NCBI RefSeq assembly: GCF_900177615.1
Contig: NZ_FXAP01000004.1
Span: 186,001 to 250,000 of the forward strand
Reading direction: 5' to 3'
DNA: 64,000 nucleotides
From: Plantibacter flavus
GTDB taxonomy: Bacteria; Actinomycetota; Actinomycetes; Actinomycetales; Microbacteriaceae
The notes under the pieces: generated by a model
The model's database searches: none
Told to the model about the DNA's origin: nothing
Seen by the model: only the letters and a program-made list of their open reading frames with translations
Made by a program: the position numbers and the translations under genes
Part shown: piece by piece, positions 7,058 through 58,502 of the stretch
How the letters are laid out: the number at the start of each line of letters is the position of its first letter
Numbering within the stretch: the stretch's first letter is position 1

Positions 7058-7209
7058 GATGTTCCTTCCCCGCACCGGAGTGCTGCGCTCGTGGCACGAA
7101 CACCTCCATGTTCGGCGATCCCCTCCGGCTGCCGGCCGTCGGCAGTGAAGATGACGACGGGTCGAGCCCGCACGCCGGCTGTGGAGCGGGCTCGTCTTGC
7201 GATCACTCG

Positions 7210-26796: not shown

Positions 26797-27283
26797 CCCT
26801 TCGACAGGCTCAGGGACCGGGACCCCGGTGGGTGCCTGCCCTTCGACAGGCTCGGGGACCGGGACCCCGGTGGGTGCTGCCCTTCGACAGGCTCAGGGAC
26901 CGGGACCCCGGTGGGTGCTGCCCTTCGACAGGCTCAGGGACCGGGACCCCCGGCCCGAGCACCCTCCCCCGGTCACTGAGCGCCCTCCGCCGGTCACTGA
27001 GCTTGTCGAAGTGCTGCCCTTCGACAGGCTCAGGGACCGGGATCGCCGGCCTGAGCGCCCTCCGCCGGTCACTGAGCTTGTCGAAGTGCTGCCCTTCGAC
27101 AGGCTCAGGGACCGGGACCCCGGTGGGTGCTGCCCTTCGACAGGCTCAGGGACCGGGATCGCCGGTGGGTGCTGCCTTCAACAGGCTCAGGGACCGGGAT
27201 CGCCGGTGGGTGCTGCCCTTCAACAGGCTCAGGGACCGGGATCGCCGGTGGGTGCTGCCCTTCGACAGGCTCAGGGACCGGGG
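26797..27283. repeat. Interspersed-repeat array between metallophosphoesterase and tRNA-Pro
   Basis: About ten direct copies of cccttcgacaggctcaggg with spacers ggaccccggtgggtgctg or gatcgccggtgggtgctg, about 41-43 bp apart, plus two inverted copies (ggtcactgagcttgtcgaag at about 26992 and 27065). It starts 14 bp after the metallophosphoesterase stop and ends near the tRNA terminator. Two copies have ttcaacaggctc instead of ttcgac. I see no gene in this stretch. Confidence 0.9.
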
Positions 27284-42801: not shown

Positions 42802-42858
42802 CCACCAATGGTAGCCGTCGCCCCCGACATCGGAGTCGGGGATCGGACTCCCCCGTCC

Positions 42859-42915
42859 GTTCGCCCATTCCCGGGCGAACGATCGTTCCCTCGCCCGGGA
42901 ATGGGCGAGGGAACG
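42859..42915. terminator. Compound palindrome between the GH43 fusion and dnaX
   Basis: Two adjacent hairpins: GTTCGCCC/GGGCGAAC (42859-42880) and CGTTCCCTCGCCC/GGGCGAGGGAACG (42884-42915, perfect 13 bp, 6-nt loop). The two halves are also complementary to each other over 18 bp (42861-42878 with 42891-42908), so alternative folds exist. It lies 20 bp after the fusion gene stop and before dnaX, and would end the fusion transcript. A related element is at 62949-63002. Confidence 0.75.
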
Positions 42916-42935
42916 TCCGCTTCAGGCGGAAGCCG

Positions 42936-45900
42936 TCAGCGTCGGACGATCATGATCCAGGAGAGCTGCACGTCCGTGCCACCGCCCGAACCGACCGGAT
43001 CGAGGGTGATCGACAGACGGCCGTCCGCATCCGGCTGCACGGACGACAGCGTCGCCACGGTCGGGGTGCCGGTGATCGGCTGTGCGCTGAGCAGTGTCGC
43101 CCCGTTCGCCCCGATGTCCGCGCGCCGGTTGTTCGCCCACTGCGACCACGGATCGTACAGACCGACGTACACGTCGTAGCTCCCCGCGTCGAGCGAGTCG
43201 AACGCGTACTCCAGCGTGCGGTCGGTCGCGGAACTCGCGACGTAGCGGAGCGACTCCGAGAACGGCCCGTCGGTCGTGCCCGTCTCCGCGCCGACGACGC
43301 CCCAGTTCGCGCCGGTGGCCGCGTCGGCCCCGAGCGTCCGGTCGAACGTGGAGTTGAGCAGGGTGCCGTCGGCCTCCGCCACCGAGCGGATCGCGTCGTA
43401 CTCGGGCGACGCCGTTCCCCCGGCGTCGACGAGGTAGACGAGGTCCTTCGGGACGACCGTCACCTGGCGGGTCACCGGGCGGGACACGCCCTCGACCGTG
43501 CCGGTCAGCGAGACCGGGCCGGGGACGGCGAGCGCCGCGGTGTCCCACGTGATCGACCGGGTGGTCGTGGCGCCGCCCTCCGTGACCTGCGCCTCGGTCG
43601 GCAGGGTGCTCGCATCGCCGAGCCGGACGGTCGCCGGCACGTCGACGTCGACCGCGACCTTGCCCTTCCCCTCGAGGTCCGCGAGCGTCCACTCGTCGTA
43701 CCACTTCAGGGACAGGGATCCGTCGTCGCCGAACTCGAGCGGGAGCCAGACGGCCGGCGCGTTGCGGAGGTCGGACGGCGTCCAGCGGTCGCCCATGTAG
43801 ATGAACTCACCGGCGGCCGCGTCGATGGGGATCACGGACGTGCTCTGGCTGCCGTGGGTCGTCGACGCACCGGAGCCGCTCACCGGGTTGCCGTGGTCGG
43901 TCCACTCCCCCAGCATCGAGTCGGTGGTGGCGTACTTGGCCGGGTTGGGGTTCCAGCCCGTCGCGCCCGAGGTGATCAGGTAGTAGGTGCCGTCGTAGAC
44001 GAACACGGCCGGAGCTTCCCGCTGTCCACCGATGTAGGTGCGGGTGAAGTCCTCGCCCTTCACGGCGCGGTCGACGGGTGCCGACAGGAACATGAAGTTC
44101 GACGACAGCTTGGAGATGAAGAGGGTCAGGTTCTCCTCGCTCGCGTAGATGATGTAGCCGGTGCCGTCGACGTCGGTGAAGAGGTTCATGTCGCGCGCCA
44201 TACCGGGGCTGTCGGGCTGGTAGTTCGGCTCGCCCTCCGGTGCGACGTTCAGGCGGTAGCTGTCCACGTAGCGGAACGGGCCGGTCGGCGAGTCGGAGAC
44301 CGCGACCCCGGCGGTCGCCTTCGCGTACTGCGCGTCGGAAGTCGCACTCGGCCCGTCGGTGTGGATCCACATGACCCACTGCTCGGTTGCGGCGTTGTAC
44401 ATGACCTTCGGCCGCTCGAGGATCGCCGCGGGGACGGCCGGATCGCTCGGGACCGTCAGGAGGTCGCGGACGACCGCCGCGCGTTGCCGGGCCGTGTAGT
44501 CGGCGTACAGCTCGGCTGCGGCCGGATCGGTCGTGAGCTGGTCGGCGGTCGACAGGGCCTGCAGCGCGAGGCCTTCGTCGGTCCAGTTGTACAGGTCGCG
44601 CGAGGAGTACACGTGCACCCCGCGGCTGCTCGCGTAGCCGTTCCACCGGTCTTCGCCGTACCAGTAGTAGATCGGCTGGCCGTCGGCGGCCGTCGACGGC
44701 ACGACCTGCCCGCCGTGTGCCTGGATCGGGTTGCCCTGGTCGTCCACCCAGGCCTGGCCCGGGCGGAACGAGTCGTAGGTGACGATCGGCCGGAGTGCGG
44801 TGAGTGCGGCCCCGAGCGCGTCGTAGGCCGCGGTGAGTGCCGCGGTGTCGGTCGACCCAGCGTCCACGAGCGCCTGGGCGTCGGCGATCGCCGCGTCGAG
44901 GACGGCGAGCGAATCGGCGACGTAGCCCGCACGCTGACCCTCGTCGAGGGTGACGGCCCGGATCTTCGCCGCGAGCACCTCGGTGGAGGCCGTGTGCGGC
45001 GCTCGGATGACGATGTAGTTCACCGCTGGGTCGGTGTAGGTGTTGGTTCGACCCGCCGGGCTGTGGACCTCGAGGTCGAGGGTGCCGTCGTCGACGCTCA
45101 CCGTGAGCTGCTGTTCGAGGAGCGCACCGGCCGGCGCGGTGACCTGGGCGAGCGTCTCGCCCTCGGCCCGGAGGTCGAGCGGTCGTGCCGCCCAGCCGCT
45201 CGGCAGGTTGAACCCGAGGGTGACCTCGTAGTCGCCGGCCGGGAGGTCGAAGGCGTAGTCGACCGACCGCGTCGGGAGGGAGCTGCCCGCGGGCGGTGCG
45301 TCGTAGCGGAGGGAGGCGGTCTTCTCGGTCCCGGAGGAGCTGTTGGGCGTCGGGTTGCTGTTCGCGTCGGCGACGAATCCCCAGGACGCGCCGGTGGCGG
45401 CGTCGACCCCGTAGGACTGGTCGGTGCGTGACTGGTACAGCCCGATGTGGTCGCCGGCGGAGACCGCGTCGGTCACCGTGCTGCCGGCGTTCGCGAAGTA
45501 GAGGACGAAGTCGTTGGCGACGAGCTCGTCGACCGTCGGGCTCGGGTAGCTCGGTGCGGCCTCGGCACGCGGTGCGTCCGCCGTGACGAGGGCGCCGGAG
45601 AGACCGAGGGCGAGGACCACCGCGCCCGCGACGCCACTGCGTCCGACACCGGCGCTGGAGGACGCGTCTTCGGCGGAGCTCGAGGCGGCGACCCGACGAC
45701 GGCGGAGGATGAGCAGTGCACCCGCGAGCAGGAGCACCGCAGCGACGATCACCGCGGCGGTGATCGAGACACCCGACACGGCGAGCCCACCGGCACCGCC
45801 TGCGTTCGTGCCCGAGCCCGGCTGACCGACCCCTGGGTTCGCCCCTGGCTCGCCGCCCGGCCCGGTTCCGGGATCGGTGCCACCGGGCAGGGAGTCGACG

Positions 45901-46919
45901 GTGTTGCCCGGGCCGCCGTTCGTGCCATCGGCGACAGGGACTGCACCGGCCGCGGCGACGGCACCCGTCTCGCCGAGCGCGACGCCGGCCGCGAGCAGAC
46001 CGTCGGGCAGTGCCGCACGGGCGTCGGCAGCGCCCCAGACGGTGACCGATCCGTCGGCGGCGATCGCCCCGGACAGGTACGGACCCGCGAAGACACGGAC
46101 GACGTCGACCCCGTCGAGGGACGCCGGCACCTCGGTCTGGCCGGAGCCGTCCGCACCCCAGGCGAGGACGGTGCCGTCGTCGGCGAGGGCGAGCGCGTGG
46201 TCGGTGCCGGCGGCGAGCTGCACGACGTCCTCGTCGGCGAGCGCCGCCGGGAGCTCGAGCTGCCCGGCGTCGCTCCGGCCCCAGGGGACGACGTCACCGT
46301 CGTCGGTGAGGGCGACGGTGAAGCCGGAGCCGATGGCGACGTCGGTCACGCGTGCACCGTCGAGCGCGGTCGGGAGGTCGTTCTGTCCGAATGCGTCGTC
46401 ACCCCAGAGCGCCAGCGTGCCGTCGGCGCGGACGGCGGCCGAGTTCGGTCCGCCGGCGGCGATGCGGAGGACCCGGTCGAGCCCTGCCGGGACCGTGGCC
46501 TGGCCGTCGGCGTCGCGGCCCCAGGCGGTGACGGTGCCGTCGGCGGCGAGCGCGAGCGAGTGGTTCGTGCCGGCCGCCACCTGGGTGATCGTCCCGGTGA
46601 GGCTCGGGACGGTCGCCTGGCCGAAACCGTCGGCGCCCCACGCGAGCACGGTGCCGTCCGCGCCGAGCGCGACGGCGTGGCCAAGACCGGCGGCGACACC
46701 GGTGACCGGGATGCCGACGAGCTCCGCGGGAGCCGCCGGGTCGCCCCAGCTGAGCAGGGTCGCCGTGGGCGCCTCGGCAGCGGTCGCGCTCCCGGCCGTC
46801 AGGGCGGTGGTGCCGACGATGGCGACCGTCAGGAGGCCGGCGGCGAGACCGCCCCGCCGCAGGACGGCGGCACCTCCATCCGGTGTCGATCGGTCGGGTC
46901 GTCTCGTCGCTCGTCGCAT
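42936..46919 (-). CDS. RCC1-repeat / GH43 two-in-one exported protein
   Basis: 1327 aa from ATG 46919, which has AAAGGA 8 bp upstream; the GTG six codons earlier is less likely. In order: signal peptide; RCC1-like beta-propeller repeats (about 54-329, with AWGADGxGQ and AAGTNHSLALAADGT); a Gly/Pro linker (332-378); a transmembrane helix and RRRR (382-409); a second hydrophobic segment with a signal-peptidase site (430-454, ending PRAEA-APS); a malectin-like domain; a FIVAR-like helical module (~640-710); a GH43 five-blade domain (~718-1077, with AHGGQVV, ERPKVMYN and GGQREAPAVF); an Ig-like Big_4 domain; and a C-terminal malectin-like domain. GH43 enzymes of this look act on galactans. No stop or plausible start separates the halves. 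It lies downstream of GH35 and is probably part of the galactan locus. Confidence 0.85.
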   Translation of the reverse strand: MRRATRRPDRSTPDGGAAVLRRGGLAAGLLTVAIVGTTALTAGSATAAEAPTATLLSWGDPAAPAELVGIPVTGVAAGLGHAVALGADGTVLAWGADGFGQATVPSLTGTITQVAAGTNHSLALAADGTVTAWGRDADGQATVPAGLDRVLRIAAGGPNSAAVRADGTLALWGDDAFGQNDLPTALDGARVTDVAIGSGFTVALTDDGDVVPWGRSDAGQLELPAALADEDVVQLAAGTDHALALADDGTVLAWGADGSGQTEVPASLDGVDVVRVFAGPYLSGAIAADGSVTVWGAADARAALPDGLLAAGVALGETGAVAAAGAVPVADGTNGGPGNTVDSLPGGTDPGTGPGGEPGANPGVGQPGSGTNAGGAGGLAVSGVSITAAVIVAAVLLLAGALLILRRRRVAASSSAEDASSSAGVGRSGVAGAVVLALGLSGALVTADAPRAEAAPSYPSPTVDELVANDFVLYFANAGSTVTDAVSAGDHIGLYQSRTDQSYGVDAATGASWGFVADANSNPTPNSSSGTEKTASLRYDAPPAGSSLPTRSVDYAFDLPAGDYEVTLGFNLPSGWAARPLDLRAEGETLAQVTAPAGALLEQQLTVSVDDGTLDLEVHSPAGRTNTYTDPAVNYIVIRAPHTASTEVLAAKIRAVTLDEGQRAGYVADSLAVLDAAIADAQALVDAGSTDTAALTAAYDALGAALTALRPIVTYDSFRPGQAWVDDQGNPIQAHGGQVVPSTAADGQPIYYWYGEDRWNGYASSRGVHVYSSRDLYNWTDEGLALQALSTADQLTTDPAAAELYADYTARQRAAVVRDLLTVPSDPAVPAAILERPKVMYNAATEQWVMWIHTDGPSATSDAQYAKATAGVAVSDSPTGPFRYVDSYRLNVAPEGEPNYQPDSPGMARDMNLFTDVDGTGYIIYASEENLTLFISKLSSNFMFLSAPVDRAVKGEDFTRTYIGGQREAPAVFVYDGTYYLITSGATGWNPNPAKYATTDSMLGEWTDHGNPVSGSGASTTHGSQSTSVIPIDAAAGEFIYMGDRWTPSDLRNAPAVWLPLEFGDDGSLSLKWYDEWTLADLEGKGKVAVDVDVPATVRLGDASTLPTEAQVTEGGATTTRSITWDTAALAVPGPVSLTGTVEGVSRPVTRQVTVVPKDLVYLVDAGGTASPEYDAIRSVAEADGTLLNSTFDRTLGADAATGANWGVVGAETGTTDGPFSESLRYVASSATDRTLEYAFDSLDAGSYDVYVGLYDPWSQWANNRRADIGANGATLLSAQPITGTPTVATLSSVQPDADGRLSITLDPVGSGGGTDVQLSWIMIVRR

Positions 46920-46950
46920 GCTGCGGCGTCCTTTCACGTCATCGTGGGGT

Positions 46951-47255
46951 GCTGCGTTTGGATCGGTCCCTGAGCCTGTCGAAGGGCGGGGAGAGGTTTT
47001 GGGCCCTTCGACAAGCTCAGGGACCGGGTGGGGTCAGGGACCGGGGTTGAGGTGCTGCGTTTGGATCGGTCCCTGAGCCTGTCGAAGGGCGGGGAGAGGA
47101 TTGGTGGCCCTTCGACAAGCTCAGGGACCGGGTGGGGTCAGGGACCGGGGTTGAGGTGCTGCGTTTGGATCGGTCCCTGAGCCTGTCGAAGGGCGGGGAG
47201 AGGATTGGTGGCCCTTCGACGAGCTCAGGGACCGGGTGGGGTCAGGGACCGGGGC
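46951..47255. repeat. Three tandem ~103-bp units carrying long hairpins
   Basis: Three copies starting at 46951, 47053 and 47158. Each holds an inverted pair (ctgagcctgtcgaaggg, then cccttcgacaagctcaggg) able to form a ~23-bp stem around a ~15-nt loop, plus a short ggtcagggaccggg. The array begins about 10 bp after the GH35 stop and runs to 30 bp before the fusion gene. The 328-bp gap has nothing else visible apart from the fusion gene's ribosome site. Confidence 0.9.
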
Positions 47256-47265
47256 GGGTTGGCGG

Positions 47266-49023
47266 CTAGAACTCGGTCGGGCCGAGCGAGGGGCGGGCGA
47301 GGAAGGACAGGGCAGGCGTCGTGAGCGCGTGGAACTCGAACACCGTGAAGCGGTTCTCCCCGGCACGGAGCTGGCCGCCGGGGACGTACAGCGTGTGCTG
47401 CGGCCCCCGCGACCAGTAGCGGCCGAGCAGGAAGCCGTTCACCCAGACGAGCCCCTTGCCCCAGGCCGCGGTGTCGAGGAACAGGTCGGTGGGCGCGTCG
47501 AGTGTGACGGTGGCGGTGAGGAGGACCGGCCCGGCACCGCTGATCGGCGCGTCAGCCGTGCGCGTGGCTGCGGCGTCCACGACGGCGTCGAGGCGGTCGA
47601 GGGCCACGGGGGCGATGCCCCACGACGTGAGTTCCACGCCGTCGAGCGACACGGGCCCGATGATCCCCTTCGGCTCCCCCAGGCGCTTGCCGTAGTTGAC
47701 GCGGCCCTGGTTCTCGAGGAGGAGTTCGAGCGTCTCGCCCGCCGGGATGACGATGGACCGCTCCTTGAACTCGCGGGTGAGTGCACCGACCGGCACGCCG
47801 TCGACGGAGACGACCACGCGGTCGCGCACCTCGGCGAACCGGAGCACCCCGCCGCGTCCGCCGATCGACGCCCGGTAGCGCGCCAGACCGCTGAACGCTC
47901 CGAGTTCGTCCATCGTGGGGATCCGGTCGAAGGCCCGGAGCGGCGCGATCTCGTCGGCCACGTCCGCGAACGGGACCTCCTGCTCGAAGGACGCGGTGAA
48001 CGCCGGGGCGTCCGTCGCAGCGGGCGGGATCTCCGTCGGCACCTCGGCGTACTTCGCGATCACGTCGCGGAAGGCGAAGAACTTCTCCGTCGGGTGGCCC
48101 GCCTCGTCGAGGGGCGCGTCGTAGTCGTAGGAGGTGACGTGCGAGCGGTACTGCCCCTTGTCGTTCGCGCCGCCGGTGAACCCGAAGTTCGTGCCGCCGT
48201 GGAACATGTAGATGTTCACGGACGCACCGGCCGCGAGGAGCGCGTCGAGGTCCGCCGCCGTCTCCGCGATGGGCGTCGTGTGGTGGTGCTCGCCCCAGTG
48301 GTCGAACCAGCCGTCCCAGAACTCCGAGCACATGAGCGGCCCGGTCGGCTGGTGTTCACGCAGGGTCGCGAGGCGTTCGAGCGAGCGGCTGCCGAAGGAG
48401 CCGGTCTTGTGGAGATCGGGGATGCTGCCGTCCTCGAGCATCTGGGCCGTGGGCTGGTCGACGGTCGTCAGCGGCACCGTGATGCCGAGCTCGCGGGTCC
48501 ACGCCGTCAGCGTGCGGAGGTAGTCGTGGTCGTCGCCGTAGGCGCCGTACTCGTTCTCGACCTGCACGAGGATGACGGGACCACCGCGGTCGATCTGCAG
48601 CGGGGCGACGATCGGCAGTAGCGCCTCGAAGTATTCGCGGACGGCGGCCAGGTAGCGAGGCTCGCTGCGACGGAGGCCGAGCTCGGGGTCGTGCAGCAGC
48701 CAGCCGGGCAGGCCGCCGTTGTCCCACTCGGCGCAGATGTAGGGGCCGGGACGCACGATCGCGTACATGCCGGCGTCGGCCACGAGTCCGAGGAAGCGTT
48801 CGAGGTCGTTCACGCCCGTGGTGTCGAACACGCCGCGCTCGGGGCTGTGCTGGTTCCACGCGACGTAGGTCTCGATGGTGTTGAGGCCCATGAGCTTCGC
48901 CTTCGCGATGCGGTCCGCCCACTGCTCGGGGTGTACCCGGAAGTAGTGGAGGGCTCCGGAGAGGATCCGGAACGGCTGACCGTCGAGCAGGAAGTCGTCG
49001 TCGCCGATGGAGAAGGTGGGCAT
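47266..49023 (-). CDS. Beta-galactosidase, GH35
   Basis: 585 aa without a signal peptide, so cytoplasmic. It hydrolyses terminal beta-galactosides. Family motifs: GALHYFRVHPEQWADRI, GPYICAEWDNGGLPGWL, acid/base Glu158 in QVENEYGAYG and nucleophile Glu234 in MCSEFWDGWFDHWG. Start at ATG 49023 with GGAG 7 bp upstream. It is downstream of the sugar ABC genes but separated by a hairpin (49058-49111), so it may be expressed at a lower level or from its own promoter. It presumably cleaves imported galacto-oligosaccharides. Confidence 0.94.
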   Translation of the reverse strand: MPTFSIGDDDFLLDGQPFRILSGALHYFRVHPEQWADRIAKAKLMGLNTIETYVAWNQHSPERGVFDTTGVNDLERFLGLVADAGMYAIVRPGPYICAEWDNGGLPGWLLHDPELGLRRSEPRYLAAVREYFEALLPIVAPLQIDRGGPVILVQVENEYGAYGDDHDYLRTLTAWTRELGITVPLTTVDQPTAQMLEDGSIPDLHKTGSFGSRSLERLATLREHQPTGPLMCSEFWDGWFDHWGEHHHTTPIAETAADLDALLAAGASVNIYMFHGGTNFGFTGGANDKGQYRSHVTSYDYDAPLDEAGHPTEKFFAFRDVIAKYAEVPTEIPPAATDAPAFTASFEQEVPFADVADEIAPLRAFDRIPTMDELGAFSGLARYRASIGGRGGVLRFAEVRDRVVVSVDGVPVGALTREFKERSIVIPAGETLELLLENQGRVNYGKRLGEPKGIIGPVSLDGVELTSWGIAPVALDRLDAVVDAAATRTADAPISGAGPVLLTATVTLDAPTDLFLDTAAWGKGLVWVNGFLLGRYWSRGPQHTLYVPGGQLRAGENRFTVFEFHALTTPALSFLARPSLGPTEF

Positions 49024-49057
49024 GCTGGGGCTCCGTGATGAAGGGGTGCGGATGGAG

Positions 49058-49111
49058 CGACCACGGCCGGCCGGAGCGGATCCCGGAGGACCCTCCGACC
49101 GGCCGCGGTCG
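49058..49111 (-). terminator. Hairpin between the binding-protein gene and GH35
   Basis: 19-bp arms (49058-49076 and 49093-49111, two mismatches) with a 16-nt loop, 30 bp after the substrate-binding protein stop. Likely a terminator or attenuator in the galactan operon. Confidence 0.65.
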
Positions 49112-49140
49112 ATGGTGCTGGTGCTACAGGTGCCGTTCGA

Positions 49141-50493
49141 CTACTTCTCGGTGACCGTGAAGCCCTGCGTGTTGCCGTACTCGACGAGCTGCTTCTGCCA
49201 GTCGGCGAGGCCGTCGTTCAGGTCGGCCTTGTTCGCGTAGGACTGCCCGACGGTGTCGGCGAAGATGCTGTTCGCGTAGACCTGGTAGGGCAGGTACTGC
49301 CAACCGGTCGACACGTCCTTCGCGCCCTGCACGAGGACCTCGTTGATCTTCTGTCCACCGAAGTACTCCGGCGCCGCGGAGAGGAATTCGTCGGAGTTCA
49401 GGTCGGCGGTCGTCGCCGGGAAGCCGCCGTTGTCGAGGAAGACCTTGACGCTGTCCTCGTCGTTGTTCAGCCACTTGAGGAAGCCCGCGGCGAGCGCCGG
49501 GTTCTTGCTCTGCTTCAGCACGACCTGGCCACCGCCACCGTTCTCGGCGTTGGCGGGCTTGCCGTCGTAGGTCGGGATCGGGGCGACGCGCCACTGGCCG
49601 GAGGCCTCGGCGACGGACGACTCGAGCACACCGGGCATCCAGGCGCCCGTGATGAGCGTCGCGATGCTGCCGTTGCCGAGCGACTTGTACCAGTCGTCGC
49701 TCCAGCCGGGAACGCTGGAGAGCAGGTCGCCCTCGACGAGCTGGTTCCAGGTGTCGGCCCACTTCTTGGAGCCCTCGTCGGCGAGGTTGACGCTCACCTT
49801 GGTGCCGTCGGCGGTGAACGGACGTCCACCGGCCTGCCAGATCATGCTGGTCGCGAAGCCGGAGTCACCGGAGTCGTTGGTGATGTACTTCGACGGGTCA
49901 GCCGTGTGCAGCTGTGCGGCTGCCGCGATGTACTCGTCCCAGGTGGTCGGCACGGCGATGCCGTACTGGTCGAACACCGTCTTGTTGTAGAACATGGCCA
50001 TGGGGCCGGAGTCCTGCGGGAGGGCGTAGAGGCCGTCGCCGATGTTGACGGAGCTCCACGGGCCGGGGCTGTAGTCGTCCTTCAGGTCGCCGAAGCCGTA
50101 GGCGTTGAGGTCGACGAGGGAGTCGCTGAGCGCGAACTGCGGGATGGCGTAGTACTCGACCTGCGCGACGTCGGGGGCACCCTTACCGGCCTTGATCGCG
50201 TTCTGCAGCTTCGTGTACTCGGTGGTGTTGGTGCCGGCGTTGACGAGGTTGACCTTGACCTTGGGGTAGGCCTTCTCGAACGCGGCGACCTGCGCCTCGG
50301 CGGAGGGCGTCCAGGACCAGTAGGTGATCTCGCCACCGGCTTCGAGGGCGGACTCGATGTCCTTCGCGTCGCCCGAGGCGGTGCTGCCGCCGCCGGACGA
50401 GCAGGCGACGAGCGAGGCTCCGATCATCGCGGACGCGACGGCCGCCGTGGCCGCGCGGCGCAGAACCGTGCGAGACGGTGAGATGCGCTTCAT
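49141..50493 (-). CDS. Sugar ABC transporter substrate-binding lipoprotein
   Basis: 450 aa. Signal peptide with lipobox SLVACSSGGG, then an extracellular solute-binding domain of family 1 (AFEKAYPKVKVNLVN, YALPQDSGPMAMFYNKTVFDQYGI, GSIATLITGAWMPGVL). It would capture galacto-oligosaccharides and deliver them to the two permeases encoded upstream. AAAGGAA lies before the ATG. No ATPase gene is present; families like this use a shared MsiK-type ATPase. Confidence 0.93.
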   Translation of the reverse strand: MKRISPSRTVLRRAATAAVASAMIGASLVACSSGGGSTASGDAKDIESALEAGGEITYWSWTPSAEAQVAAFEKAYPKVKVNLVNAGTNTTEYTKLQNAIKAGKGAPDVAQVEYYAIPQFALSDSLVDLNAYGFGDLKDDYSPGPWSSVNIGDGLYALPQDSGPMAMFYNKTVFDQYGIAVPTTWDEYIAAAAQLHTADPSKYITNDSGDSGFATSMIWQAGGRPFTADGTKVSVNLADEGSKKWADTWNQLVEGDLLSSVPGWSDDWYKSLGNGSIATLITGAWMPGVLESSVAEASGQWRVAPIPTYDGKPANAENGGGGQVVLKQSKNPALAAGFLKWLNNDEDSVKVFLDNGGFPATTADLNSDEFLSAAPEYFGGQKINEVLVQGAKDVSTGWQYLPYQVYANSIFADTVGQSYANKADLNDGLADWQKQLVEYGNTQGFTVTEK

Positions 50494-50536
50494 GGGTGTT
50501 TCCTTTCACTGCGTTGGGAGGAGGAGGTGATGCCCC

Positions 50537-50665
50537 GGTCCCTGAGCCTGTCGAAGGGCGGAGGTGGTGCCCTTCGACAAGCTCAGGGACCGGTTGGTGA
50601 TGCGGTGGTGCGGGTTGGGAACGGGTGTTGGCGCGGGTGGCCCTTCGACAAGCTCAGGAACCGAG
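50537..50665. repeat. Interspersed-repeat hairpin between permease and binding-protein genes
   Basis: An inverted pair (50537-50559 and 50569-50591, 9-nt loop, one G-U) with core ctgagcctgtcgaaggg, followed by a single copy cccttcgacaagctcagg near 50641. It lies between two genes of the same operon, 14 bp after the permease stop, and could act as a processing or attenuation site that separates permease from binding-protein expression. Confidence 0.85.
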
Positions 50666-50678
50666 ACCGCAGGAAGGA

Positions 50679-51629
50679 TCAGCCCTTGACGCTGCCGGCG
50701 CTGAGGCCCGACTGCCAGAAGCGCTGCAGGAAGAGGAACGCGATGACGATCGGGACGATGGTCAGGAGCGATCCGGTGATCACGAGGTTGAAGATCGGTT
50801 GGGCAGCGACACCGGTGGCCTGGGCGCTCCACTGGCTGAGGCCGACGGTGAGCGGATACCAGGTGGGCTCCGACAGCATGATGAGCGGCAGGAAGTAGTT
50901 GTTCCACGTCGCGACGATCGCGAAGAGGAGCACCGTGACGATGCCGGGGCCGAGGAGTCGCAGCGAGATCGTGAAGAAGGTGCGGAACTCCCCCGCGCCG
51001 TCCATGCGGGCGGCCTCGAGCAGTTCGGTCGGGACCGCGTCCACCGCGTACGTCCAGATGAGGTACAGACCGAACGGGCTGACGAGCGAGGGCAGGATGA
51101 CCGCCCACGGCGTGTTCGTGAGGCCGAGCTGGCTGAACATCAGGAAGGTCGGGACGGCGAGCGCCGTGCCCGGCACCGCGATGGAGCCGAGGATGATCGC
51201 GAAGACGGCGCGCTTGCCCGGGAACCGGAACTTGGCGAGGCCGTAGCCGCCGATCGTGGCGAGCAGCGTCGCCCCACCGGCACCGACCACCACGTAGAGC
51301 AGCGTGTTGCCGAACCAGCCGACGAACTGCCCGTCGCGGTAGGTGAGCGTGTCGACGATGTTCTGCCAGAGGTTGAACCCGCCGTCGCCGAACCAGAGAC
51401 CGAAGGACGAGAAGAGGTCGGGCTGGGACTTCGTCGCGTTGATGACGAGCCACAGGATCGGGACGACCGAGTAGATGAGGAAGACGGCCATGACGATCGT
51501 GAGGACGATCGAGCGCTTCCGGCGCGGGTCGTGGCGCTTCCTGGTGGGCCGGTCGAAGGCGCGCGGGTTGCGGGCGGTCCGGGTCGACACGGTCTGCGGG
51601 CGGACGGTCGGGTTCGAGACGGTGGCCAT
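50679..51629 (-). CDS. Sugar ABC transporter permease (second, MalG-like)
   Basis: 316 aa. Six transmembrane helices; the cytoplasmic EAA loop is ELLEAARMDGAGEFRTFFTISLRLLGPG, the site that contacts the ATPase. N-terminus is basic (RPTRKRHDPRRKRS). It starts by sharing one base with the stop of the first permease (TGATG). MalG-type position and length. Confidence 0.94.
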   Translation of the reverse strand: MATVSNPTVRPQTVSTRTARNPRAFDRPTRKRHDPRRKRSIVLTIVMAVFLIYSVVPILWLVINATKSQPDLFSSFGLWFGDGGFNLWQNIVDTLTYRDGQFVGWFGNTLLYVVVGAGGATLLATIGGYGLAKFRFPGKRAVFAIILGSIAVPGTALAVPTFLMFSQLGLTNTPWAVILPSLVSPFGLYLIWTYAVDAVPTELLEAARMDGAGEFRTFFTISLRLLGPGIVTVLLFAIVATWNNYFLPLIMLSEPTWYPLTVGLSQWSAQATGVAAQPIFNLVITGSLLTIVPIVIAFLFLQRFWQSGLSAGSVKG

Positions 51630-52552
51630 CAGCTGTTCTCCTGTCGGGAGCCGCGCACCTGCACGACGTAGGCGATGACGGCGGTGATGACGCCCATGAT
51701 GATCGCGACCGTCGCCGCGAGGTTGAACTGCTGACCGGCGAAGGACAGGTTGTAGGCGTACATGTTCGGGGTGAAGTTGCTCGTGATCACGTTGGGCGCG
51801 AGGTTCTTCAGCAGGTTCGGCTCGTTGAAGAGCTGGAACGACCCGATGACGGAGAAGATCGTCGCGATGACGAGGGCTCCGCGGAGGGCGGGGATCTTGA
51901 TGCTGAAGACGGTGCGGAACTGTCCGGCCCCGTCGATCTCGGCCGCCTCGTAGATCTCACCGGGTACGACACGGAGGGCGGCGTAGAAGATGAGCATGTT
52001 GTAGCCCATGAACTCCCACGTCACGATGTTGCCGATGGACGCGAGGACGGCCTGGGAGCTGAACGGCTCGAGGATCTGGGCGCCGACGAGGTCGTTGAAG
52101 CTGCCGGCGAGACCGAACTGGTCGCCGTAGATGAAGCCCCAGATGAGTGCCGCGACGACGCCCGGGACGGCGTACGGCAGGAAGAGCGCGATGCGGAAGA
52201 AGGCGGCGCCGTGGAGCCGGGCACTGTCGAGCGCGAGCGCCGCGGTGAGGGACAGGGCGAGCATGATCGGCACCTGCACGACGAAGAACAGGGCGACGCG
52301 GCCGAACGGCTCCCAGAACTTCGGGTCCTGGAGCACCTGGGCGTAGTTGTCGAGGCCGACGAAGGCGTTGCCGCCGATGAGCTTCTCCTGGAAGAAGCTG
52401 AGGTACAGCGCGTAGACGAGCGGCGCGATGATCATCAGCGCGAAGACGATCATGAAGGGGGCGATGAACGCCCAGCCCTTCCAATCCCGGCGGTCGCGTC
52501 GGTGGACACGGACCGCTGGTGGCCGGCCGGTGCGAGCGGTCGTGGTGGTCAT
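51629..52552 (-). CDS. Sugar ABC transporter permease (first, MalF-like)
   Basis: 307 aa. Six helices beginning GWAFIAPFMIVFALMIIAPLVYALYLSF; EAA loop EIYEAAEIDGAGQFRTVFSIKIPALRG. It is the first gene of the importer operon, 151 bp from the divergent lacI, with two operators in between. TCCTTGC... gives an AAGGAAG ribosome site upstream. Confidence 0.94.
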   Translation of the reverse strand: MTTTTARTGRPPAVRVHRRDRRDWKGWAFIAPFMIVFALMIIAPLVYALYLSFFQEKLIGGNAFVGLDNYAQVLQDPKFWEPFGRVALFFVVQVPIMLALSLTAALALDSARLHGAAFFRIALFLPYAVPGVVAALIWGFIYGDQFGLAGSFNDLVGAQILEPFSSQAVLASIGNIVTWEFMGYNMLIFYAALRVVPGEIYEAAEIDGAGQFRTVFSIKIPALRGALVIATIFSVIGSFQLFNEPNLLKNLAPNVITSNFTPNMYAYNLSFAGQQFNLAATVAIIMGVITAVIAYVVQVRGSRQENS

Positions 52553-52624
52553 GGGCAGCTTCCTTGCTGGGATTCGGGCGGAACCGTCGTGCGGTGGAGC
52601 CGTGCGGGGGAGGGAACACGTTGG

Positions 52625-52673
52625 ATGTTTACGTCAACATCTGTTCGGTACCATAGCATGTTCACGTCAACAT
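52625..52673. promoter_or_regulatory. Two LacI operators between importer and lacI
   Basis: ATGTTTACGTCAACAT (52625-52640) and ATGTTCACGTCAACAT (52658-52673), 33 bp apart centre to centre, lie in the divergent promoter region. The same palindrome occurs twice upstream of the GH30 gene. Central ACGT with TGTT/AACA arms is a LacI-family pattern. Confidence 0.8.
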
Positions 52674-52702
52674 GCAAGGATGGATGCGACGATAGGGAGA
52701 CC

Positions 52703-53743
52703 ATGACGGACACCACCCGGAGAGCGCCTGGCCGCGCCAGGCGAGCACCGTCGATGGCGGACGTCGCAGCGCACGCCGGCGTCTCGTCCCAGACCGTCTC
52801 CCGCGTCGCGAACGGGCTGACCAACGTGGACGACGGCACCCGCGACCGCGTGCTCGAGGCCATGACCGAGCTCGGCTACCGCCCGAACAAGGCCGCGCGG
52901 GCGCTGCGATCAGGGCGCACGCGCAGCATCGGGATCACGATGTTCACGCTCTCCTCCTACGGCAACATGCGCACGCTCGACGCGATCACGGTCCAGGCGG
53001 CACGGGCCGGGTATTCGGTCACGGTCGTCCCCGTCGAGTACCCGACGCAACGCGACGTCGCGGTCGCGCTCGACAGCCTCCGCGAGCAGGACGTCGACGG
53101 CCTGATCATCGTCATCGAGTCGCACATCGTCGACGGCGCCGACGTCGAACTCCCCTCCGGCCTGCCGGTCGTCGTCATCGACTCCGCGGCACGCACCGAC
53201 TACCCGGTCGTCGACAACGACCAGGCACAGGGCGCGGCACTCGCCACCCAGCACCTCCTCGACCTCGGACACCAGGGCGTCTGGCACATCGCCGGCCCCC
53301 GTACCTCCTACTCGGCGGCTCGTCGTGAGCAGAGCTGGGCCGACACCCTGCGGGAGGCCGGCATCACCCCGCCGCCCGCGTTCCGTGGCGACTGGTCGAC
53401 GACCTCGGGGTACGAGATCGGCCTCGAGATCGCCGAGCGCCCGGAGATCACGGCCGTGTTCGCGTCGAACGACCAGATGGCGCTCGGGCTCCTGCGCGCC
53501 CTGCACGAGCGTGGGCGTGCCGTGCCGCAGTCGATCAGCGTCGTCGGTTTCGACGACACCCCGGAGTCGGACTCGTTCTGGCCGCCACTCACGACGGTGC
53601 ACCAGGACTTCGACGAGATCGGCCGCCGGGCGATCACCACGCTCCTCCGCGAGATCGAGGAGGGCCCGCAGCTCTCCACCGAGCCCCTCACGCCGACGTC
53701 CCTCGTCGTCCGCGCGAGCACGGCTCCCCCGCCCGCGCGCTGA
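52703..53743 (+). CDS. LacI-family regulator of the galactan locus
   Basis: 346 aa from ATG 52703 with AGGGAGA upstream. HTH SMADVAAHAGVSSQTVSRVANG, hinge ELGYRPNKAARALRSG, effector domain ending SVVGFDDTPESDSFWPPLTTV. It lies divergent from the importer operon and upstream of the GH30 gene; four operators of one type in these two regions define its regulon. The effector is probably a galacto-oligosaccharide or galactose, which is an inference from gene content. It is followed by interspersed repeats. Confidence 0.93.
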   Translation: MTDTTRRAPGRARRAPSMADVAAHAGVSSQTVSRVANGLTNVDDGTRDRVLEAMTELGYRPNKAARALRSGRTRSIGITMFTLSSYGNMRTLDAITVQAARAGYSVTVVPVEYPTQRDVAVALDSLREQDVDGLIIVIESHIVDGADVELPSGLPVVVIDSAARTDYPVVDNDQAQGAALATQHLLDLGHQGVWHIAGPRTSYSAARREQSWADTLREAGITPPPAFRGDWSTTSGYEIGLEIAERPEITAVFASNDQMALGLLRALHERGRAVPQSISVVGFDDTPESDSFWPPLTTVHQDFDEIGRRAITTLLREIEEGPQLSTEPLTPTSLVVRASTAPPPAR

Positions 53744-53764
53744 GGTGAGGGAGACACTCCACGC

Positions 53765-53882
53765 GGTCATTGAGCCTGTCGAAATGCCCACGGCGACACC
53801 TCGATCAGCTCGGCGAACGAAGCCCCGGTCATTGAGCCTGTCGAAATGCACACCTCCGCACTTCGACAGGCTCAGTGACCGG
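53765..53882. repeat. Interspersed repeats after lacI
   Basis: Two direct copies of ggtcattgagcctgtcgaaa (53765 and 53827) and one inverted copy (cacttcgacaggctcagtga, ending 53879). The second and third form a ~23-bp stem-loop. It starts 22 bp after the lacI stop and probably ends its transcript. Confidence 0.85.
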
Positions 53883-53958
53883 AACGGACCGGAACGGGGA
53901 CCTCAGCGGCCGGCCATCGCTTGACACCCGAGCGAGGGGTCGCCCATACTCGTCGGAA

Positions 53959-54009
53959 ATGTTGACGTGAACACGGTGGTTCGACGCCGCCGAATGTTCA
54001 CGTGAACAT
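53959..54009 (+). promoter_or_regulatory. Two LacI operators upstream of the GH30 gene
   Basis: ATGTTGACGTGAACAC (53959-53974) and the perfect palindrome ATGTTCACGTGAACAT (53994-54009), 35 bp apart, end 36 bp before the GH30 ATG. They match the operators at 52625-52673 and place GH30 in the same regulon. Confidence 0.8.
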
Positions 54010-54044
54010 CCCCTGCACCACGGCCTCCAACGAAGGAACCACCG

Positions 54045-57000
54045 ATGACACTGCCGTCACCAGTCCGCCGACGAACGATCGGAGCGACCGTCGCCGTCGC
54101 CCTCGGCATCGCCGCGATCGCGCCAGCACTCGCCACCGTGGACGCCGCACCCGCGGCCGCCGCGGAGAGCACTACCCTCACCATCACCCCCAACCCGGCC
54201 TACCAGAACGAGGCGTTCGAAGGCTGGGGCACGAGCCTCGTCTGGTTCGCCAACGCCACGGGCGACTACCCGGCGGACGTCCGCCAGGACCTCTTCGACA
54301 AGGTGTTCGGTGAGGACGGCCTCAATCTCAACATCGCCCGCTACAACATCGGTGGCGGCAACGCGAGCGACGTCCCGCCCTACCTGCGGGCCGGCGGCGC
54401 GGTCGACGGCTGGTGGAACCCGGACCTCGCCGCGAGCGACGCCGACGGCCCCATCACCTCCGACTACGTCGACCGCGACCGCTACGCCGCCGCCTGGGAC
54501 GCCGACGACCCGGCCTCCTACGACTTCGACGCCGACGAGACCCAGCGCTGGTGGCTCACAGCACTCAAGGACAAGATCACCAAGTGGGAGGCGTTCAGCA
54601 ACTCCCCGCCCTACTTCATGACCGAGAGCGGCTATGCGTCGGGCAACTTCAACGCCGCCGACGAGCAGCTGAAGCCCGAGAGTGTCGACGACTTCGTCGC
54701 GTACCTCACCACCGTCGTCGACCACCTCGAGGCCGACACGGGCATCGACTTCGACACCATCGACCCCTTCAACGAGCCGAACACCAACTACTGGGGCACC
54801 CAGATCGACGAGGCCACCGGTTGGCCGAAGGGCGGACGCCAGGAGGGCGCGCACATCGGCCCGGCCATGCAGGACACCGTCATCAAGGCCCTCGCCGAGC
54901 GCCTCGCCGCCGAGGGCACCTCGACCGAGGCCGTCATCGCGGCCATGGACGAGACGAACCCCGGCATCTTCGCGACGAACTGGAACGGCTGGTCACAGAC
55001 CGCCAAGGACCTCGTCACGCAGCTCAACGTCCACAGCTACGGCCAGGGCGGCAGCGTCGTCGCACGCGACATCGCGAAGACCGCCGGCAAGCCGCTGTGG
55101 ATGAGCGAGGTCGAGGGCAACTGGGACTCCAGCGGCAAGCACAACCTCACGAACATCGACAACGGCATCGGCATGGCGACGCACCTCATCGACGACCTCC
55201 GCAACCTGGAGCCGACCGCGTGGGTGCTCTGGCAGCCCGTCGAGGACCTCTACAACATGGAGAAGGTCGAGAAGCTCAACTGGGGCAGCGTCCTCATCGA
55301 CTTCGACTGCAACGCCGAGGGTGACTCGGAGCGACGCATCGCAGACGGTGACGCCGACCCGAGCTGCTCGGTGAAGACGAACGCGAAGTACAACACGCTC
55401 CGCAACTTCACCCACTACGTGCAACCCGGTGACCACCTCATCCCGTCCACCGACGCGCAGACCACCACGGCACTCCGTGCCGACGGCACGGGCGCGACCC
55501 TCGTGCACGCCAACCCGTCGACCTCGGCTCGGACGATCACGATCGACCTGTCGAAGTTCGCCGACATCGCTCCCGGAGCGACGGTCACGCCGGTCGTGAC
55601 GACGGAGTCCCCCGCGGACGACGTCACCGCCAATGCACTCGTGCAGGGCGACGCCGTGTCGATCGACCCGGTGACCAAGCAGGCGACGCTCACCGTCCCG
55701 GCGAAGTCGGTCACCACCTTCCTCGTCGACGGTGCGACCGGTGTCGCAGCCGACGCGGCGCCGTTCCAGGACGGACACGCCTACCAGCTCGTCGGCAGGC
55801 AGAGCGCGAAGGCGTTCACCGCCGCAGCCTCGACGGGGTCCGTACCGGCCGGCACGATCACCCCGCGCGCTTCCGACGCCACGACCGGTGCCGCACAGGT
55901 GTGGACCGCCGAGCTCCTCTCCGGAGGCGGCACGAACACCGACCGCTACGCCGTCCGCAGCTCGTCCGGAGCACTCCTCTCCGCGACCTCCGCCGGCACC
56001 TCGCTCGTCGCCGCGACGCGGGAACAAGCTGCGGCCGACCCATCGCTGCAGTGGATCCCGACGACGACCAACGGCTCCGAGTGGAGCCTCGTGAACGTCG
56101 GAACCAGCCAGGCCCTCGAGGTCGGCGGGCAGTCCACCGCCACGGGTGCCGCCGTCGGCGTCTACCAGTCGAACAACGGCGCGAACCAGACGTGGAGCTT
56201 CGTCGACACCGCCCTCACGGGAGTGCAGCCCGTCACCGTGCAGACCGTCGCCGGTGTTCCGGCGGCGCTGCCCGCGACCGTGGTGCCGCTGTACGGCGCG
56301 GTCCAGGGCGCTCCGGTGCCGGTCACCTGGGACACCTCGGCCGTGGACTGGAACACGCCGGGCACGATCGTCGTGAACGGCTCCGGCACCGACGGGTGGG
56401 GTGCGGCGTTCACCGCGCAGGCCGCCGTCGACATCGGCGGCTTCACGACCACCGAGCCGGTCTCTCTGACGGTCGCCGCAGGGTCCCCCGCGAGCGCCGT
56501 CATCGCTGCGGCGCCGACCACGGTCCCGGCGCAGATCGGTGCGAGCACCAACCGCTTCGACACGGCCGTCACGTGGGACTTCAGCACCCTCGACGACGCC
56601 GACCTCGCCGACACCGGTGTGGTGCAGGTGCGCGGCGCGGCTGCGTCGAACGACCCGACCGCGGCACCGGTCGACGCACTCCTGTCGATCATCGTCACGG
56701 CGCCCGGCGAGCGGAACATCGCACCGGACGCCACGACCGTCGCGAGCGCGACGTCCACCGAGTCCGGCTATCCCGCGAGCAACACGAAGAACGGTGTGCG
56801 GAACGACAAGGGTTGGTCGAACTGGCGCTCGTCGAACAAGCCCGCGAGCGACACCTTGAGCTATGAGCTCGGCGGTGAGCACACGATCGAGCACGTCACC
56901 TTCTACGCCTACAAGGACGGGAGCACCAACAGCTGGCCGAGTGCGCTGACCGTGCAGTTCCGCGACGCCGACGGCGCGTGGATCGATGCTCCGGGTGGGG

Positions 57001-57953
57001 CGGTCGCCGTGCCGGTCCCGAGCGATGGGACGGCTCCGATCGTCGACGTCGACCTCGGTGGCGTCACGACGAGTGCGGTCCGCGTCGTGATGACGGCGTA
57101 CGCGAACACCCACCTGGTCGTCTCGGAGGTCGAGATCTACGCGCTCGCACCGTCGGTCGCGACCGAGGCGAGTCTCGCCGCGCTGCGGGTGAACGGCACA
57201 CCGGTCGAGGGCTTCGACGCAGGCGTCCTCGAGTACGAGGTGCCGCTCGCCGGGTCCGCCGATCCGGTGGTCGACGCCATCCCGGCCGACCGCGACGCGA
57301 CGGTGACGATCGAGCCGCTTGACGCGGTACCGGCTGCCGCTGCTCGCGCTGCGGCTGATGCGAGCGACGGTGTCGTCATCACCGTGACGGCGGCCGACGG
57401 CGTGACCACGCAGTCGACGACCGTCACCTTCGCTCGGACGGCGGTCGCGACCGCGACGCTGTCGAGCGTGGCCCGCGAGGGCGTCCCGACGACCGCGGCG
57501 GTCGTCGTGGACCCCGAGGACGCGGCCGTGGTCTACGCCTGGCTGCTCGACGACGAGGTCGTGGACAGCGCCGACACGGCGACGTTCACGCCGCCCACCG
57601 GCAGTGCGGGTGCCGCGCTCGCGGTGCGGGTCACGGTCTCTGCCGATGGATTCGCGCCGGTCGAGACGACGTCCACGCCGGTGACGGTGCTCGCCGCCGC
57701 GGTGGACCCGGGGACCGATCCCGGCACCGACCCGGGGACGAACCCCGGCACCGGGCCCGGCACGGGCTCCGGTGGTGGCACGGTCGGTGGTGGTGACGGC
57801 ACGAGCTCGCCCTCGGGTGGTTCGGCCACCGGCACCGACTCGCTGTCGCGCACGGGTGTCGACGTGTCGAGCATCGGGCTCGTCGCGCTGCTCCTCGGCC
57901 TCGTCGGCTTCGCCTCGGTGCTGATCGCGCGTCGCCGTCGCTCCGCGGAGTAG
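54045..57953 (+). CDS. Endo-beta-1,6-galactanase-like GH30, wall-anchored multidomain
   Basis: 1302 aa. Signal peptide (cleaved near AAPAAAA-EST, ~40). GH30 catalytic domain about 45-560: FEGWGTSLVWFAN, NIARYNIGGGNASDVPPYLR, acid/base Glu244 in PFNEPNTNYW and nucleophile Glu355 in LWMSEVEGNW; this motif set is that of endo-beta-1,6-galactanases. Then a ricin-type lectin domain (~575-725), two Ig-like Big_4 domains, a discoidin-like F5/8 carbohydrate-binding domain (~885-1030), further beta-sandwich domains, an acidic TDPGTDPGT-type linker and a C-terminal LSRTG, hydrophobic helix and RRRR, a sortase-like signal. GAAGGA lies before the ATG. Two LacI operators precede it and a terminator follows. 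Confidence 0.9.
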   Translation: MTLPSPVRRRTIGATVAVALGIAAIAPALATVDAAPAAAAESTTLTITPNPAYQNEAFEGWGTSLVWFANATGDYPADVRQDLFDKVFGEDGLNLNIARYNIGGGNASDVPPYLRAGGAVDGWWNPDLAASDADGPITSDYVDRDRYAAAWDADDPASYDFDADETQRWWLTALKDKITKWEAFSNSPPYFMTESGYASGNFNAADEQLKPESVDDFVAYLTTVVDHLEADTGIDFDTIDPFNEPNTNYWGTQIDEATGWPKGGRQEGAHIGPAMQDTVIKALAERLAAEGTSTEAVIAAMDETNPGIFATNWNGWSQTAKDLVTQLNVHSYGQGGSVVARDIAKTAGKPLWMSEVEGNWDSSGKHNLTNIDNGIGMATHLIDDLRNLEPTAWVLWQPVEDLYNMEKVEKLNWGSVLIDFDCNAEGDSERRIADGDADPSCSVKTNAKYNTLRNFTHYVQPGDHLIPSTDAQTTTALRADGTGATLVHANPSTSARTITIDLSKFADIAPGATVTPVVTTESPADDVTANALVQGDAVSIDPVTKQATLTVPAKSVTTFLVDGATGVAADAAPFQDGHAYQLVGRQSAKAFTAAASTGSVPAGTITPRASDATTGAAQVWTAELLSGGGTNTDRYAVRSSSGALLSATSAGTSLVAATREQAAADPSLQWIPTTTNGSEWSLVNVGTSQALEVGGQSTATGAAVGVYQSNNGANQTWSFVDTALTGVQPVTVQTVAGVPAALPATVVPLYGAVQGAPVPVTWDTSAVDWNTPGTIVVNGSGTDGWGAAFTAQAAVDIGGFTTTEPVSLTVAAGSPASAVIAAAPTTVPAQIGASTNRFDTAVTWDFSTLDDADLADTGVVQVRGAAASNDPTAAPVDALLSIIVTAPGERNIAPDATTVASATSTESGYPASNTKNGVRNDKGWSNWRSSNKPASDTLSYELGGEHTIEHVTFYAYKDGSTNSWPSALTVQFRDADGAWIDAPGGAVAVPVPSDGTAPIVDVDLGGVTTSAVRVVMTAYANTHLVVSEVEIYALAPSVATEASLAALRVNGTPVEGFDAGVLEYEVPLAGSADPVVDAIPADRDATVTIEPLDAVPAAAARAAADASDGVVITVTAADGVTTQSTTVTFARTAVATATLSSVAREGVPTTAAVVVDPEDAAVVYAWLLDDEVVDSADTATFTPPTGSAGAALAVRVTVSADGFAPVETTSTPVTVLAAAVDPGTDPGTDPGTNPGTGPGTGSGGGTVGGGDGTSSPSGGSATGTDSLSRTGVDVSSIGLVALLLGLVGFASVLIARRRRSAE

Positions 57954-58029: not shown

Positions 58030-58502
58030 GGGGGCACTTCGACAAGCTCAGTGACCGGAGCCCTTCCCGCGGAGAGACCCGCTCCCTGAGCCTGTCGAAG
58101 GGCCCACGAGCAACCACACCCGACACGAAACGGCTCCCCGAAGACACCTCCACAAGCTCAGTGACCCGAACGGTACCCCGCTCCCTGAGCCTGTCGAAGG
58201 GCCCACGAGCACCCACACCCGACACGAAACGGCTCCCCGAAGACACCTCCACAAGCTCAGTGACCCGAACGGTACCCCGCTCCCTGAGCCTGTCGAAGGG
58301 CCCACGAGCAACCACACCCGACACGAAACGGCTCCCCGAAGACACCTCCACAAGCTCAGTGACCCGAACGGTACCCCGCTCCCTGAGCCTGTCGAAGGGC
58401 CCACGAGCACCCACACCCGACACGAAACGGATCCCCGAAGACACCTCCACAAGCTCAGTGACCAGAACGGTACCCCGCTCCCTGAGCCTGTCGAAGGGCC
58501 CA
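58030..58502. repeat. 99-bp tandem array of interspersed repeats
   Basis: Five copies beginning at 58081, 58180, 58279, 58378 and 58477, each gctccctgagcctgtcgaag followed by a spacer and an inverted half (cacaagctcagtgaccc). The period is exactly 99 bp; as this is a multiple of three, open frames run through both strands, but the translations are repeat shadows. A further inverted pair lies at 58034-58060. It sits between the convergent GH30 and ptsH genes, each of which has its own hairpin. Confidence 0.9.

Follow-up and report, generated by a model that had tools for sequence, protein, structure and literature searches.

How can a single open reading frame supply two complete exported proteins, the first of which carries its own anchor? 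This question is raised by a gene in a 64,000-nucleotide stretch of DNA from Plantibacter flavus, a bacterium of soils and plants (contig NZ_FXAP01000004.1, positions 186,001 to 250,000), which we call the window and whose numbering is used throughout. The fused gene occupies 42936..46919 on the minus strand (ATG at 46919-46917, stop at 42938-42936) and runs uninterrupted from 46919 to 42936, encoding 1327 amino acids without an internal stop; AAAGGA was found by eye 9 nt ahead of the ATG. An earlier note on this DNA had described an open frame without a stop over this interval, and this was borne out with the gene placed on the minus strand. Read in the plus direction, 42936-46919 does not give the gene, and that reading was set aside. 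The protein opens with a signal peptide, after which come an RCC1/BLIP-II-type propeller and a Gly/Pro linker; a sortase-like anchor, a bridge, a second signal-peptide-like segment, and a GH43_24-type galactanase complete it.

We consider it fairly likely that this reading frame encodes a two-protein precursor in which the second signal is cut by signal peptidase and the enzyme is released. In this mechanism, the first signal peptide would export the propeller, the LAVSG-helix-RRRR anchor would halt translocation and leave the later residues cytoplasmic, and a 22-residue bridge would remain inside the cell. The second signal would then restart export such that the GH43_24-type exo-beta-1,3-galactanase ends outside, and signal peptidase I would cut after AEA454, freeing the enzyme while the propeller stays anchored. 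The resulting products would be those made by the separate, ATGA-overlapping genes of Scrofimicrobium described below, and the fusion would force 1:1 synthesis of the surface propeller and the enzyme.

Layout of the fused protein

At a KD17 hydrophobicity threshold of 1.6, the window protein contained exactly three hydrophobic segments: residues 24-40 (KD17 1.88), 389-405 (3.12), and 429-445 (2.16). The middle segment is followed by RRRR and the last by TADAPRAEA/APS and then YPSP (the slash marks the predicted cut). Pfam models for RCC1 matched best over residues 70-221 and those for GH43 best over 862-1014. The signal peptide, RCC1 repeats, Gly/Pro linker, helix, and RRRR proposed in the earlier note could all be located in the translated frame, its bridge of about 20 residues came to 22, and the second signal-peptide-like helix with its AEA-APS site was present as described.

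The N-terminal signal peptide (residues 1-48, 46776..46919, minus strand as for all parts of the gene) includes segment 24-40, its cut site being placed by eye. Residues 49-330 (45930..46775) matched Pfam RCC1_2 (3.3e-37) and, by phmmer, BLIP-II (7e-31). The AlphaFold model gave block values of the predicted local distance difference test (pLDDT) of 85-95 over residues 71-290, seven blades were counted by hand from its strand list, and the best PDB fold in Foldseek was again BLIP-II (1jtd_B, E 2.1e-23). As modeled, this region is a seven-bladed RCC1/BLIP-II-type propeller; as to its role, binding of the substrate, or of the enzyme or another partner, is our guess. A Gly/Pro/Ala-rich linker with pLDDT under 50 follows (residues 331-378, 45786..45929).

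The linker leads into a sortase-like sorting signal (45705..45785) composed of LAVSG at residues 379-383, a transmembrane helix at 384-405 (KD17 3.12), and RRRR. In the excerpted text of PMC5148588, a sorting signal is described as a pentapeptide, a hydrophobic helix, and positive charges in that order, and the anchor of the fused protein follows the same order. The pentapeptide is LAVSG in three fused genes, LALSG in two, and LSSTG in the unfused relative, so that the fused proteins have Ser for the Thr of the class E LAXTG motif. The NCBIfam LAXTG model, whose cut-off is 65 bits, scored only 16.3 bits over residues 366-409, and the anchor lies at residues 379-409 of 1327 instead of at the C-terminus, where sorting signals are positioned. 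We have not classed the anchor as a LAXTG sortase substrate; it is possible that it works in a sortase-like manner, and sortase processing at this internal site is plausible. The genome contains three sortase genes (PF04203, above cut-off), and signals of the same layout (LSRTG, LADTG, and FASTG) are present at the C-termini of three other exported proteins in the window. By our filter, these were the only anchor-like C-termini among 336 genes called in 464 kb sampled from the same genome (3 of 336, all in the window). In the two fusion-bearing loci outside Plantibacter, an anchored protein ahead of the fused gene ends in LANSG.

The fused protein may thus have two processing sites rather than one, the anchor resembling a sortase signal. 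In the fuller version of this idea, which we hold only tentatively and regard as somewhat unlikely, sortase would cut LAVS/G and attach the propeller to the wall, AEA/APS would be cut by signal peptidase I, and a short two-helix remnant would be discarded. If so, each translation event would give one wall-anchored partner and one released enzyme, a fixed 1:1 ratio.

Downstream of the anchor lie a presumed cytoplasmic bridge from RRRR to VGR (residues 406-427, 45639..45704), the internal signal-peptide-like segment (residues 428-454, 45558..45638), with its predicted cut after AEA454, and the enzyme half (residues 455-1327, 42939..45557). The enzyme half comprises an N-terminal domain, a helical spacer, the GH43 catalytic domain, a weak Big_4-like match below the Pfam cut-off, and a C-terminal beta domain. 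Its AlphaFold model, built on a 6-row alignment, had a pLDDT of 49.5 and was too poor for fold assignment. In phmmer, the catalytic domain (residues 716-1080, 43680..44774) matched 6eug (BT3683; 7.3e-71), 3vsf (Ct1,3Gal43A; 5.2e-49), 7bys (1.1e-38), and 5flw ("exo-beta-1,3-galactanase"; 9.4e-29), all of them GH43_24 enzymes. In the alignment to 7bys, which is Pc1,3Gal43A, residues E835, E968, and Q1025 fall on Glu102, Glu208, and Gln263 (chain number + 21). The excerpted description of Pc1,3Gal43A places it in GH43 subfamily 24 and gives Glu208 as the catalytic acid, Glu102 as substrate-recognizing, and Gln263 as replacing the usual Asp base (PMC7939473). By sequence, the enzyme half appears to be a GH43 subfamily 24-type exo-beta-1,3-galactanase, and its nearest solved relatives and E/E/Q residues support the galactan-active GH43 enzyme that had been proposed for this DNA.

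Spread and origin of the fusion

The fusion was found in a single frame in three of seven Plantibacter genomes, including Plantibacter sp. VKM Ac-1784 and a genome assembled as a single contig (G001), and in both genomes of another genus, represented by Okibacterium fritillariae (L005) and Leifsonia sp. ALI-44-B (L006). The search for homologues suggested in the earlier note thus returned the same fusion in five genomes of two genera, so that the halves are not always separate genes, and no stop or frameshift interrupts the junction in any of the five, as expected of the true in-frame fusion that it had proposed. Within Plantibacter the fused genes share 97% identity; with those of the other genus they share 66%, and the enzyme halves alone are 73% identical between the two genera. 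In a 17-row tree, the five fused GH43s formed one clade with support of 100/100.

Beyond these genes, a scan of public genome contigs returned 28 loci, four of which cover both halves (three fused, one separate); the others consist of one locus matching part of the enzyme half (L023) and 23 matching the propeller only. A query of the propeller with its anchor matched 5 of 249 family genomes. Four of these matches were fused genes, G001 not being among the five, and the fifth genome contained other RCC1 proteins, one of them ending in an LSVTG-type anchor. The enzyme half matched in 15 of the 249 family genomes (1e-20) and 8 of 396 order genomes (1e-60), and among 394 class genomes the Scrofimicrobium enzyme matched in 4 (1e-100); the three sets of genomes overlap. 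GH43 was a shorter separate gene in four order relatives, one of which was read, and another genome (G342) has a 1514-codon frame. A plasmid search gave 19 records with partial matches, ten of them listed and none covering 80%.

Apart from the fused genes, the whole enzyme half was matched in the family and order searches only by G146 and G547. Both come from another genus of the family and have frames of 1684-1690 codons. In G146 (L054, 6007-11061), one frame places the GH43 behind a GH30 domain (Pfam 2.5e-13) and a ricin-type domain, and BLAST shows this layout for G547 (L066) as well. This joining of GH30 to GH43 is another way of linking galactan enzymes; by eye, no internal signal was seen in the G146 frame, which has no anchor, and this counts in favor of the two-protein precursor.

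The one locus with separate halves comes from Scrofimicrobium canadense (L007). Here a 411-aa RCC1 protein has its own signal peptide, a proline-rich linker, and an LSSTG-helix-K/R tail, and the ATG (7131-7133) at which a GH43 gene begins overlaps its TGA stop (7132-7134) in the sequence ATGA. The GH43 gene has an ordinary-looking signal peptide of its own, with a usual AHA/D type site by eye, and a frame resembling GH30 by eye lies ahead of the RCC1 gene. In the tree, this enzyme sits on a long branch beside the fused clade (82/74). A small change at the ATGA overlap would be enough to create a fusion with the anchor and second signal already in place. We infer that the two-gene arrangement of Scrofimicrobium is probably the pre-fusion state and that the fusion probably has a single origin, in an overlapping pair of this kind that lost its stop/start overlap; it may have been transferred between genera. 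The fusion is thus common to two genera, and the unfused relative suggests its origin.

The second signal and competing explanations

Because the anchor should leave the later chain inside the cell, the second signal would be required to export the enzyme. Nei-Gojobori counts over nine regions, made pairwise among the three Plantibacter genes, gave no nonsynonymous changes in the internal signal (residues 428-455) against 6, 4, and 4 synonymous ones. The adjoining bridge had 4, 3, and 3 nonsynonymous changes at about 46 sites, and its proportion of nonsynonymous differences (pN; 0.065-0.087) was the highest of the nine regions in every Plantibacter pair. Between Okibacterium and Leifsonia, pN was 0.124 in the bridge and 0.033 in the signal. 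These small but agreeing numbers indicate that the second signal is retained under purifying selection. The AXA motif ahead of the enzyme is also kept in both lineages (TADAPRAEA/APS in Plantibacter, PPTAADA/AALAPS in the Okibacterium lineage) while the preceding region otherwise differs, and the elements of an internal signal peptide, namely a positive n-region, a hydrophobic core, and AXA, are all present in both, AXA being a common motif and the Okibacterium core a weak one. The likeness between the Okibacterium-lineage segment and the free Scrofimicrobium signal peptide goes beyond composition, its score being reached by only 5 of 2000 shuffles. With its weak hydrophobicity (KD17 1.56), this segment is closer to a signal peptide than to an anchor. 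Together, these data suggest that release of the enzyme by signal peptidase is likely.

The layout itself was uncommon in the DNA covered. Among 106 called proteins of at least 400 aa in the 464-kb sample, AXA closely followed 31 internal hydrophobic segments. Seven of these were in proteins with at most four segments and were compared by eye, the other 24 being in polytopic proteins and outside the comparison; of the seven, only that of the fused protein trails an anchor helix with arginines. A scan for the entire layout (motif, helix, K/R, second segment, AXA, at most five segments) covered 549 stop-to-stop frames of at least 500 codons from all collected loci (1.22 Mb, much of it overlapping) and returned nothing but further copies of the five fusions.

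Several observations weigh against cleavage and release. Within this Ala-rich proteome, AXA stood behind 67 of 346 helices of polytopic proteins and, within the same distance, behind only 6 of 19 lone N-terminal segments; the motif is therefore neither specific nor sensitive, and we dropped the argument for cleavage from the motif alone. The Plantibacter segment resembled the Scrofimicrobium signal peptide no better than composition would predict (315 of 2000 shuffles), and with a KD17 of 2.16 it could be an uncleaved anchor. The Okibacterium and Leifsonia segments fall below 1.6, so that the three-segment call holds for the window protein only. Counts within the 28-codon signal segment are small, two nonsynonymous changes occurring there between Okibacterium and Leifsonia. 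Four of the seven Plantibacter genomes gave no match at 1e-10, the family, order, and class searches scored few candidates per genome, and Scrofimicrobium, with its long branch and weak sister placement, is the sole unfused relative found with both halves. The strongest competitor built on these points is that the second segment is a signal anchor that stays in place, leaving propeller and enzyme on one membrane chain with both outside the cell. Permanent tethering of the enzyme to a binding module would give the fusion a benefit, and both the hydrophobicity of the Plantibacter helix and the background frequency of AXA fit this explanation. It is opposed by the weak hydrophobicity of the Okibacterium and Leifsonia segments, by the retention of AXA in both lineages, and by the usual cleavage site of the free Scrofimicrobium signal peptide, and we regard it as rather unlikely.

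The remaining explanations fared much worse. If the enzyme half were made also or mainly from an internal start codon, the fusion would be only apparent. Among ATG, GTG, and TTG, to which the scan was limited, the region between anchor and enzyme contains an in-frame GTG at residue 434 in the window gene and at 411 in G001, but none of these codons in the three remaining fused genes. Moreover, GTG434 lies within the hydrophobic core and would yield a signal lacking its positive end. No start codon is conserved between the halves, and we rejected internal restart at these codons as very improbable. Slightly less credible still is a decaying junction, in which an accidental fusion has left the second half unexported and drifting. 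The fast evolution of the bridge would fit, but the signal is conserved, the catalytic residues are kept, and the fusion, present in two genera whose enzyme halves are 73% identical, is hence old unless transferred. Decay was rejected on the catalytic domain, where pN was 0.002-0.006 and the synonymous proportion (pS) 0.10-0.11. Finally, the separate genes of Scrofimicrobium might suggest that a sequencing or assembly error joined two genes, but five genomes agree on a single frame, the bridge differs among them in sequence and between genera in length (22 residues vs about 64 columns), and we rejected such an error as almost inconceivable.

The locus and known systems

The neighbors of the fused gene suggest, by their content, a locus for the use of type II arabinogalactan. 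Upstream on the same strand are a GH35 beta-galactosidase (47266..49023, minus; Pfam 5.2e-117) and a sugar ABC importer (49141..52552, minus) with a binding protein (49141-50493, SBP_bac_1) and two permeases (50679-51629 and 51629-52552, BPD_transp_1). On the plus strand are a LacI-family regulator (52706..53743; Pfam LacI 2.5e-16, start codon chosen by hand) and a GH30 enzyme with a signal peptide and an LSRTG-helix-RRRR anchor (54045..57953; Pfam Glyco_hydr_30_2 2.7e-17), which we infer to be of beta-1,6-galactanase type. In Okibacterium fritillariae, frames resembling by eye the GH35 and GH30 of the window also lie ahead of the fused gene. Rfam gave no matches in window positions 42000-54100.

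A 21-base palindrome-forming element (CCCTTCGACAAGCTCAGGGAC-like) occurs at 37 places between 1815 and 61021 of the window with at most two mismatches, and in none of 100 shuffles. It clusters at 26797-27278, 40468-40752, 46966-47232, and 58035-58498, and near-perfect inverted copies, together with a 104-nt tandem repeat of the element, lie just upstream of the fused gene. The five copies at 40468-40752 are in frame and 66 bases apart inside the gene at 39991-42801 (minus), which Pfam identifies as DNA polymerase III gamma/tau and in whose tail they encode repeated PEPVEG peptides. Elsewhere in the window, two long adjacent genes (20634-22985 and 23107-25659) have closely similar signal or anchor starts and are possible tandem duplicates.

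The fused gene is a clean test case for whether a sorting signal and a signal peptide, both internal, can be processed on one chain, and it illustrates how the assumption of one exported protein per open reading frame can fail in annotation. To our knowledge, bacterial precursors holding two complete exported proteins, the first of them self-anchored, are rare, and a search of open PMC literature (titles and abstract starts of the papers listed, mostly without subscription papers) found neither this fusion nor any two-exported-protein bacterial precursor. The cytochrome b/c1 precursor FbcH of Bradyrhizobium reportedly holds two proteins that signal peptidase separates at an internal signal peptide; these are said to be respiratory complex subunits, with an integral membrane first half, no sorting signal, and no secreted enzyme. 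The engineered SEB-CWS-BlaZ hybrid of sortase studies is likewise said to place a cell-wall sorting signal mid-chain with an enzyme behind it, but this laboratory construct lacks an internal signal peptide and its enzyme therefore stays inside.

Each half also has known counterparts. The propeller is like BLIP-II and RCC1-like propellers in sequence (7e-31) and fold (Foldseek 2.1e-23), whereas the fused protein adds a linker and a sorting-signal-like anchor, and nothing here points to beta-lactamase binding. With the GH43_24 exo-beta-1,3-galactanases (7bys, 6eug, 3vsf), the fused enzyme has the catalytic domain and E/E/Q residues in common, but it trails a propeller and anchor and has other accessory domains. 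For the proposed release, the parallel is LtaS of Staphylococcus aureus, which SpsB, in the excerpted account, cuts between A217 and S218 behind the membrane domain to free the extracellular enzyme domain (PMC10865820). The membrane part of LtaS is polytopic and belongs to a single enzyme, whereas here a complete exported and anchored second protein precedes the putative site.

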